64,000 bases of DNA from Sulfurovaceae bacterium (GTDB taxonomy: Bacteria > Campylobacterota > Campylobacteria > Campylobacterales > Sulfurovaceae). The translations under genes were made by a program, and so were the position numbers. The stretch lies in contig JAQTLV010000002.1 of the NCBI GenBank assembly GCA_028714675.1, forward strand, positions 186,001 through 250,000, read 5' to 3'. Shown here piece after piece: positions 61,404 to 64,000 of this stretch; the first letter of the stretch is position 1; every line of letters begins with the position of its first letter. The notes under the pieces were generated by a model that was not told where the DNA came from, searched no databases, and saw only the letters and a list, made by a program, of their open reading frames with translations.

Positions 61404-62273
61404 ATGTTTGATTTTTTAAAAAAAGCACTAGGCAAAACAAATGAATCGATTGCCGATATTGTTTCTGAAAAAAGAAAAGAAATATCAAGAGATGCTTTTG
61501 AGGAGTTACTTTTAGAGGCTGATGTTTCTTATGATTTAGTGGAATCGTTAATTGATAGTTTGTCATCATCTATAAATAGAGTTCAAGCTTACAATTCTCT
61601 AATTTCGCTTTTTGGATATGATGTCAATCGTAAAAATAGTGATTTGAAACCTTTTGTTGAAATGATAATAGGCGTAAATGGTGCTGGGAAAACGACTACC
61701 ATTGCTAAGTTGGCAAGGATGTATCAAAAAAATGGCAAAACCGTAATGCTTGGAGCCGGCGATACATTCAGGGCTGCTGCTATAGAGCAATTAACTTTGT
61801 GGGCGGACAAGTTATCAATTCCAATTATATCTACAAAACAAGGACATGATCCATCTGCCGTTGTATATGATGTAATTGCTTCAGCAATCTCTAAAAATAT
61901 TGATAATGTTATTATAGATACAGCTGGACGCTTACACACACAAACAAATCTAGCAGGTGAGCTTCAAAAAATGGTGAGAACAGCAAATAAAGCCATGGAT
62001 GGAGCACCGCATAGAAAAATATTAATACTTGATGGGACACAAGGTAATTCATCCATAAATCAAGCCAAATCATTTAATGAAATGATAGGGATAGATGGAA
62101 TAATCATAACCAAATTGGATGGTACGGCAAAAGGCGGCTCTATATTTAGCATAGCCAACGAGTTGAAGTTACCAATTTTGTATATTGGCATAGGTGAAAA
62201 ACCAGATGATTTAATAGAATTTAAAGCAAATGATTTTGTAAATGCAGTTTTAGATGAGGTTTTTTTAAAATAA
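61404..62273 (+). CDS. ftsY: Signal recognition particle receptor FtsY
   Basis: FtsY is the SRP receptor GTPase at the inner membrane. The 289-residue protein has a helical N domain and a G domain with GVNGAGKTTTIAKLA (G1), DTAGRLHTQTNL (G3) and TKLDGTAKGGS (G4). It lacks the acidic A domain of E. coli FtsY, as in other Campylobacterota. Confidence 0.95.
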   Translation: MFDFLKKALGKTNESIADIVSEKRKEISRDAFEELLLEADVSYDLVESLIDSLSSSINRVQAYNSLISLFGYDVNRKNSDLKPFVEMIIGVNGAGKTTTIAKLARMYQKNGKTVMLGAGDTFRAAAIEQLTLWADKLSIPIISTKQGHDPSAVVYDVIASAISKNIDNVIIDTAGRLHTQTNLAGELQKMVRTANKAMDGAPHRKILILDGTQGNSSINQAKSFNEMIGIDGIIITKLDGTAKGGSIFSIANELKLPILYIGIGEKPDDLIEFKANDFVNAVLDEVFLK

Positions 62274-62347
62274 TTATTTTAAAAAATGTTATTTTTTTTA
62301 AAAATATAGTAAAATATATAAATTTAAGTTATCCGAAAGGAGTTTTC

Positions 62348-63478
62348 ATGGATTCAGCAAATTTTATCTCTTTTTATAAGCCATATATCTCTAATGCAAA
62401 TATTGATTTATTTAGTTGTTTAAATAATTCAAAAGCCAAAGAGTTAGAAGCAAAATTTTCAAATATGTTTAATATAAAATATTCACTTTCAACTATGAGT
62501 GGCACATCTGCTTTGCATTTGGCAATGTGTGCAATAGATTTAAAAAGAGGAGATAAAATAATATGCAGTGTTAATGCGTATGTTGATGTTCCTGAAGTTG
62601 TAAGACATTTTGATGCAGAGCCAATTTTTGTAGATTGTGATGCTTCAAGCTATATGATTGATTTAAAAAAATTAGAATCCACATTAAAAACACATAAAAG
62701 CAAGAAGCTTAGAGCTATTATCTTGAATCATATGGGAGTTGATGGATTTAACTTAGAAAAGTTATACTCTTTGGCTAGAGAATATGATGTAAAGGTCATT
62801 GAAGATGCAACAGATGCCATGGGTTCTAAATATGATGAAAAATTTTTAGGTTCGCTAAGTTCTGATATAACAATATTTTCTTTTGCTCCACATGTGTATA
62901 ATGATTTTATTTCTGGCGGCATGTTTACTACTAACGACCAGGAATTATTTAAAAGAGCAAAACTTCTCAGAAATCATGGTATTATAAATCAATGCGATGA
63001 GAGTGAATGTGAAATCAATTATCTATATGACACAATAGATATTGGATGGAGATATGCAATGAATGATATTGTTGCATGTGTATGTTTAGATAGAATGGAA
63101 ACTTTAGAAATCCAAAAAACAAGAAGACATGAAATAGCCTCAAAATATGTTCAATCTCTAAGTAATGTAAAAAATGTAAAAATTATTACAAACATAGAGC
63201 ATGATAATATAATGTACTTTTTTGTTGAAATAGAAAAAAATAGAGACCATTTTGCTAGAGAGCTTAAACATAGCGGGATAGATGTAGGACTTCATTATAT
63301 GCCTTTACATTTAACGGATTATTATAGAAAAAAATATTCGCTTAGGGTTTTTGATTTTCCAGTAGCACTTGGAATTTATCAAAAAACACTTTGTTTGCCA
63401 CTTTATGCGAGCATGAAAGATGATGAAGTTTCTAGAGTTATAGAAGCAGTGGAAAAAATTGCAAATTCATATATTTGA
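62348..63478 (+). CDS. DegT/DnrJ/EryC1/StrS-family protein without the catalytic lysine
   Basis: A 376-residue PLP-fold protein of the sugar aminotransferase family. SGTSALHLAM binds the cofactor phosphate, and IEDATDAMGSKYDEK holds the Asp that contacts the pyridine ring. The usual SF..K...TGEGG signature reads SFAPHVYNDFISGG: the Schiff-base Lys position is V183, so normal transamination is unlikely. H182 lies next to it, recalling PLP dehydratases that use His. An AAAGGAG site precedes the ATG. Its stop overlaps the lpxK start, a pairing seen in Campylobacterota, so an envelope sugar role is likely but unproven. Confidence 0.85.
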   Translation: MDSANFISFYKPYISNANIDLFSCLNNSKAKELEAKFSNMFNIKYSLSTMSGTSALHLAMCAIDLKRGDKIICSVNAYVDVPEVVRHFDAEPIFVDCDASSYMIDLKKLESTLKTHKSKKLRAIILNHMGVDGFNLEKLYSLAREYDVKVIEDATDAMGSKYDEKFLGSLSSDITIFSFAPHVYNDFISGGMFTTNDQELFKRAKLLRNHGIINQCDESECEINYLYDTIDIGWRYAMNDIVACVCLDRMETLEIQKTRRHEIASKYVQSLSNVKNVKIITNIEHDNIMYFFVEIEKNRDHFARELKHSGIDVGLHYMPLHLTDYYRKKYSLRVFDFPVALGIYQKTLCLPLYASMKDDEVSRVIEAVEKIANSYI

Positions 63479-64000
63479 TGATGTCAAGGTTTTTTGAAGC
63501 AATTTGGTTTGATACAAAATGGTTTCATTATTTTTTTATAATTCTATTTTTGCCAATATCAATTTTGTGGGCAGTTTTTATGATTGTCAGAAGATTTTTG
63601 GCAATTAGAGAAAACTTTGAAATTCCAATAATTAGTATAGGTAATTTGCAAATTGGTGGAACCGGTAAAACACCGTTTATAATAGAACTCGCATCAAATT
63701 TTAAAAATGCATATATAGTTAGCAGGGGCTATGGCAGAAAAAGCAATGGATTGATTCAAGTTAGCAAAAATGGCAAATTATTTTCAGATGTAAATGCTAG
63801 TGGTGATGAAGCTTATTTGATGGCAGTATCAATAAACAAAAGTAATGTCATAGTAAGTGAAGATAGACGAGCAGGGATAGAGTTTGCTAAAGTCCAAGGG
63901 GCAGATGTAATTTTTTTGGATGATGGTTTCAATCAAGTCAATATAGAAAAATTTGAAATATTGTTAAAACCGTCCAGAGTAACCAACTATTTTCCAATTC
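63478..64000 (+). CDS. lpxK: Tetraacyldisaccharide 4'-kinase, 5' part
   Basis: LpxK phosphorylates the lipid A disaccharide at the inner membrane. The visible 174 codons have an N-terminal hydrophobic helix (about 18-40), the P-loop ISIGNLQIGGTGKTPF, then SRGYGRKS, GDEAYLMA and LDDGFNQ, all LpxK signatures. The gene continues past the window end. The ATG overlaps the stop of the DegT-family gene by one base; a second ATG follows directly. Confidence 0.93.
   Translation, partial: MMSRFFEAIWFDTKWFHYFFIILFLPISILWAVFMIVRRFLAIRENFEIPIISIGNLQIGGTGKTPFIIELASNFKNAYIVSRGYGRKSNGLIQVSKNGKLFSDVNASGDEAYLMAVSINKSNVIVSEDRRAGIEFAKVQGADVIFLDDGFNQVNIEKFEILLKPSRVTNYFPI

Follow-up and report, generated by a model that had tools for sequence, protein, structure and literature searches.

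GnnB is a lysine-bearing DegT transaminase of 2,3-diamino-glucose lipid A in Campylobacterota, and LCB1 of serine palmitoyltransferase is a conserved fold-type I protein that has lost its PLP lysine and needs a lysine-bearing partner. As a yardstick for PLP contacts we took Spr1654, for which the available part of PMC5936713 gives Lys199, Asp170, Ser194, Thr59, Glu205 and His196 as contacts to PLP and Gly28*/Ile30* as contacts to uracil, and describes the glutamate of the EGG motif as orienting donor-binding residues; the mapping of these contacts onto the numbering used here is our own. ColD and E1 are DegT relatives in which, according to the portion of PMC8987622 available, His occupies the place of the lysine and PMP is bound.

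The protein analysed here is encoded near the end of a 64,000-nucleotide stretch of Sulfurovaceae DNA (the window), and we use DegT* as the label for the lysine-less DegT-fold family that contains it. DegT* has the fold, the length and two pocket residues (D153 and T53) in common with PseC and ArnB, but is without their Schiff-base Lys, EGG glutamate and SGWxTxGP loop. As in ColD and E1, the lysine of the DegT signature is replaced; whereas those enzymes have His there, in DegT* L, M or V predominate, with His at 182 and Ser178 kept in 62/101 rows, a comparison made by description and not by residue alignment. LCB1 and DegT* are both conserved lysine-less fold-type I proteins, but whereas LCB1 needs its partner, some genomes with DegT* have no second long DegT match. 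With GnnB it shares the DegT family and a link to lipid A, GnnB being set apart, by description, by its lysine. No account of the family was found in the available portions of open-licence articles, and the accessible part of PMC6477937 held nothing bearing on it. The features of the locus are as follows.

61404..62273, + strand: ftsY-like gene (SRP54 GTPase), 5' neighbour of DegT* in the window
62336..62342, + strand: Shine-Dalgarno-like AAAGGAG, 5' of the ATG at 62348 (from the sequence)
62348..63478, + strand: DegT*, DegT-fold protein without Schiff-base lysine, 376 aa (PF01041; AF2 model and fold search; Ka/Ks)
62879..62920, + strand: SFAPHVYNDFISGG, residues 178-191 (S178-G191), replacing the SF-x3-K...EGG signature (from the sequence and the ArnB alignment)
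62894..62896, + strand: codon 183, GTG (Val), matching ArnB K188 (ArnB alignment; Lys in 0/80 rows, best 80 of at least 383 relatives)
63478..64000, + strand: lpxK, first 174 codons in the window (PF02606, 2e-32; NCBIfam, 216.7 bits)

The initial annotation had placed valine where the Schiff-base lysine should stand and regarded the glutamate of the signature as lost, and both observations were confirmed. Residues 177-191 (FSFAPHVYNDFISGG) align without gaps with those of ArnB K188A (4oca; FSFHAIANITCAEGG), so that V183 falls on ArnB K188 and Ser189 on the Glu of EGG, FISGG standing where xEGG is usual; the codon directly before that of Val183 is CAT (His182). Three congeners read GTG, ATA and GTG at codon 183, none of them Lys, which makes a sequencing error very unlikely. 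The protein matches PF01041, the DegT/DnrJ/EryC1/StrS family, over its full length (E = 1.3e-72; 245.5 bits against a gathering score of 19.8) and scores 246.4 bits with the PseC equivalog TIGR03588 of NCBIfam, under its cut-off of 423.5. An AF2 model (pLDDT 88, pTM 0.88), built as a monomer and with residues 216-233 as the only run of three or more residues with pLDDT <50, has the fold of a fold-type I aminotransferase and matches over its whole length PseC (2fnu, TM 0.87, Z 41.2) and ArnB (TM 0.84; 8sng, Z 41.6). The best database matches (PF01041, PseC) would thus be read as sugar aminotransferase, which probably misnames most of the family.

A contig scan gave at least 383 confirmed relatives, the best 80 of which were used for row counts; these come from Campylobacterota taxa, save two labelled just "bacterium". 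In the resulting set of 80 rows (the window and 79 loci from the best 80 of at least 383) residue 183 is L in 64, M in 10, V in 3 and R, G or N in one each, and is Lys in none. When 18 more divergent members were added, from three other families and from the window's own, Lys was found at 183 in 1/97 rows (locus L114), compared to 23/23 paralogues taken from the same order. The change is hence common to the orthologues beside lpxK across the order, the comparison for which the initial annotation had called. A profile search across 298 sampled genomes of the phylum gave a match at 1e-60 in 189, about 171 of them with a clear orthologue (best E <1e-125) and the other 18 with divergent members or paralogues. 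All 44 DegT* rows of a 67-row tree, mostly lpxK-linked, form one clade with 100/100 support and all 23 paralogues lie outside; four lpxK-linked rows that had been labelled as paralogues (L145, L147, L156 and L180) fall within the clade. It is this tree that carries the claim of a clade, since FastTree with midpoint rooting placed every one of the 108 DegT* rows on the same side with support of 0.126 after re-rooting, leaving that branch uncertain. DegT* is accordingly older and wider than a single window could show, and these alignments and trees show it as an order-wide orthologous family of putative DegT-fold pseudo-aminotransferases, not a mutation of a single strain, in which the Schiff-base lysine was probably lost once, in an ancestor.

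The gene is intact and under strongly purifying selection, with Ka/Ks of 0.04-0.11 among four close orthologues and of 0.057-0.062 between the window and three congeners. It is carried by 43 of 59 relatives, as a single copy in 42 of the 43, and a protein so nearly always single-copy and so strongly conserved does something that matters to the cell. Four loci (L024, L087, L187 and L189) contain long antisense ORFs, and DegT* is present there too.

Measured against Spr1654, the pocket is altered unevenly. The Asp to the pyridine nitrogen, D153, is kept in 97/101 DegT* rows and the Thr to the PLP phosphate, T53, in 86/101, compared to 23/23 paralogues for each; S178, also a phosphate contact, is kept in 62/101 rows compared to 23/23, and all three are present in the window. 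The EGG glutamate (E189) survives in 1/101 rows, compared to 16/23 paralogues (Asp in 5, Gly in 2), and is Ser in the window; His180 is found in 1/101 rows compared to 9/23 paralogues; and the GP glycine of the N-terminal SGWxTxGP loop, which by our own mapping corresponds to the nucleotide-base contact of Spr1654 Gly28/Ile30, is found in 5/101 rows compared to 23/23. The statement of the initial annotation that other cofactor motifs remain is therefore right for T53 and D153 but not for S178, which is often replaced, nor for E189, which is almost always lost. Other pocket positions have changed in a consistent way: position 127 is N/S/T in 100/101 DegT* rows and V in 21/23 paralogues, and position 155 is S/T/C/N in 96/101 and A in 20/23, with S74 and N76 each in 99/101 DegT* rows and H128 in 95/101. 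H128 gives way to Phe in four rows and to Leu in two, and D153 to E, E, N and S in four, two loci (L156 and L180) having E at 153 together with L at 128. What is needed to transaminate and to bind the nucleotide base is thus gone, while part of the cofactor floor stays, and in most members it is well supported by these alignments that no internal aldimine would form. The retention of D153 exceeds what plain cofactor loss predicts and counts against a simple dead enzyme.

Residues were also gained, here defined as at least 95% conserved in the 97 DegT* rows and under 30% in paralogues. Nine of the 23 such positions (67, 70, 86, 87, 88, 89, 91, 119 and 121) lie at the start of a large-domain strand or at most five residues before it, and are R67, K70, R86, H87, F88, D89, E91, K119 and L121. 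Since the active site is at the strand ends, these strand-start residues are on the opposite edge, edges being judged from the strand order of the AF2 model and not from coordinates. The strand-start edge comprises 36 of the 376 residues (P 8e-5 for 9/23 gained positions), and 4/9 lost positions are on the pocket edge (P 0.006), both edges having been defined after the residue list was known. R67, R86, F88, D89 and K329 are kept in the four most divergent members.

A lysine elsewhere that fills the vacated position was the objection foreseen in the initial annotation; it is absent from the 80 rows (best 80 of at least 383), but one divergent member has it in register and a small subclade has it in a shorter loop. 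In L114 (G209:C1:202487-203611; SFFPDKLHCIANGG) the Lys is exactly in register at the Schiff-base place, the sole such row of 97, and this member may differ in function from other DegT*. The subclade has nine members (L025, L128, L147, L187-L190, L193 and L195; local support 0.999 in FastTree), seven of which (L025, L128, L187-L190 and L195) have a Lys at the spacing of true enzymes, seven residues before GG, in a loop, mostly GSKxDN, that is one residue shorter upstream; at that place L193 has R and L147 has P. Counted from GG this Lys is at the catalytic place, but counted from the strand it is at that of His182, and it could be either a re-gained PLP lysine or a substitute for His182. Because the subclade and L114 are nested inside DegT* in the trees, re-gain is likelier than retention. 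Just past the place Lys is common but not conserved (184 in 31/80 and 185 in 22/80 rows, best 80 of at least 383), and some DegT* members may, judging from such residues, bind PLP covalently. Another conserved lysine taking the place was rejected for the main group: Lys is found in at least 80% of the 97 rows at 66, 70, 119, 120, 149, 297, 327 and 329, none of them within the 176-192 loop.

The ATG of lpxK overlaps the DegT* stop codon (TGATG), which bears out the coupling to lpxK noted in the initial annotation; the 175-residue fragment in the window scores under the NCBIfam full-length cut-offs, and in the genome of the window (G000) the gene is at G000:C2:249541-250368. LpxK adjoins DegT* in 40/40 genomes with both found (59 relatives, 43 with DegT*); in G002 DegT* is split across contig ends. 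Two DegT*-LpxK pairs were seen in G055, on contigs C27 and C32 of an assembly with 8% contamination, and could be a second pair or two strains. Among the loci named from the best 80 of at least 383 relatives, 79/80 gave a DegT* ORF, with lpxK next in 74/79 and three of the other five stopping at a contig edge; the upstream gene in these 79 is nadE in 33, a DUF455 gene in 28 and ftsY-like in 4. In the diverged loci lpxK is next in 18/18 and nadE 5' in 17/18. Thirty lpxK loci from genomes picked mainly for having no strong DegT* match had a divergent DegT* in three and none beside lpxK in 27, these last being preceded by nadE in 16, by the DUF455 gene in five and by other genes in six. DegT* has probably dropped out of an old nadE-DegT*-lpxK-argB operon on several occasions.

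In genus g5 of the window's family (loci L188-L190), a lineage possibly without lipid A, no LpxK, LpxC or LpxB match and no LpxD above cut-off was found in 3/3 draft genomes, which are 95% (G014), 95% (G024) and 74% (G033) complete. DegT* is intact in all three, with Ka/Ks of 0.074 for one pair, and argB is next to it (two by ORF, the third by its start sequence), lpxK being missing between them. G058 has no LpxK, yet LpxC, LpxB and LpxD are present. A single absence in a draft tells little, whereas several per genome in three related genomes carry more weight. The window's own genome, 99.8% complete, gave no LpxC match and no LpxD above cut-off, with LpxK and LpxB present, and LpxC is present in all 10 congeners searched; the absence could be an assembly gap or a real loss. 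No LpxK residue conserved in at least 85% of one group and under 40% of the other separates 93 LpxK with DegT* from 27 without. Since g5 keeps DegT* with no Lpx detected and other genomes have lpxK alone, the two genes are separable, and this, together with the lack of a discriminating LpxK residue, leads us to take the pairing with lpxK for an inherited operon, not for proof of a role in lipid A. Such a role is weakly supported; DegT* is probably not simply a lipid A gene, and it seems able to do its work without lipid A and without a second DegT protein.

We lean slightly towards DegT* being an ancient pseudo-aminotransferase put to new use as a binding protein that does not transaminate. 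It would be a homodimer, probably made from the lpxK-argB transcript, that no longer transaminates; its altered pocket, with D153 and T53 kept and polar residues gained at 127 and 155, would hold a different ligand, or a vitamin B6 compound bound only loosely, and the new conserved edge would dock to a partner or to the membrane. The lysine-bearing subclade and L114 temper this reading. More tentatively, and as a possible rather than a probable course of events, the family may have given up the transamination kit and, needing no PLP Schiff base, taken on a new role as a catalyst or a ligand-gated scaffold acting through the new edge, with Lys returning in one subclade in another register and in L114 in its former place. 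If so, one could trace within one family how a catalytic residue is lost and gained back; true enzymes, lysine-less DegT*, members whose pocket has decayed and members with lysine again form a natural series, in which what becomes of a lost PLP residue can be tested directly.

Two alternatives keep DegT* an enzyme. It could be a PMP- or PLP-dependent enzyme without lysine, like the ColD/E1 sugar 3-dehydratases, with His182 or another residue as base, which we consider unlikely. ColD and E1 do have His for lysine in the text available from PMC8987622, E1 H220K is among the fold matches, D153 and T53 are largely kept, H182 is found in 70/80 rows (best 80 of at least 383) and some members have lysines at or beside the place; against this, the nucleotide-base loop is missing, the phosphate Ser178 is replaced in 39/101 rows, and residue 182 is one residue off and non-H in 32/101 (H 69, Q 16, S 4, D 4, N 3, the rest singles). 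Being both variable and one residue before the lysine place, His182 was rejected as a catalytic base, and the PLP dehydratase-like enzyme using a His that the initial annotation had offered is left unsupported. That the remodelled pocket supports new, PLP-free chemistry agrees with how well the remodelling is conserved, at 127 and 155 as at S74, N76 and H128, but H128 and D153 vary in several rows, unlike a fixed catalytic site, and the neighbours suggest no substrate, so that this too appears improbable.

The neighbourhood raises two further explanations. DegT* as an accessory protein of LpxK or lipid A synthesis, be it scaffold, membrane dock or regulator, would fit the TGATG overlap and the constancy with which lpxK adjoins it while the upstream gene varies (nadE, DUF455 gene, ftsY); we nevertheless hold it to be quite unlikely, given the 27/30 chosen lpxK loci without DegT* beside, the lack of a separating LpxK residue and the persistence of DegT* in g5, the last with the reservation that those genomes are drafts and that LpxC and LpxD were missed in the window's genome too. 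Of the options in the initial annotation, a non-catalytic binding protein fares best; a place in lipid A assembly is undercut by g5. A non-catalytic subunit pairing with a lysine-bearing DegT aminotransferase, in the manner of LCB1, might use the low-pLDDT segment 216-233 as a putative partner loop, and sugar aminotransferases are described, in the part of PMC5936713 available, as dimers with sites from both subunits. PF01041 searches in seven genomes (G009, G029, G004, G024, G033, G014 and G000) make it barely credible: in the first five, two of them 98-99% complete, DegT* is the only long match, the rest being short and at most 41.2 bits. The partner of a true DegT enzyme envisaged in the initial annotation is hence unneeded in 5/7 genomes searched, and an obligate heterodimer with a lysine-bearing DegT, for which these five offer no other match >42 bits, was rejected. 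G014 adds a match of 52.5 bits, at the end of a contig and possibly a real DegT, and G000 has four more long matches. On its contig C10 three lysine-bearing DegT genes lie within about 12.5 kb (L129:2508-15015), with PseC, the LegC family and PseC as best models, all under cut-off, and probably form a surface-sugar cluster.
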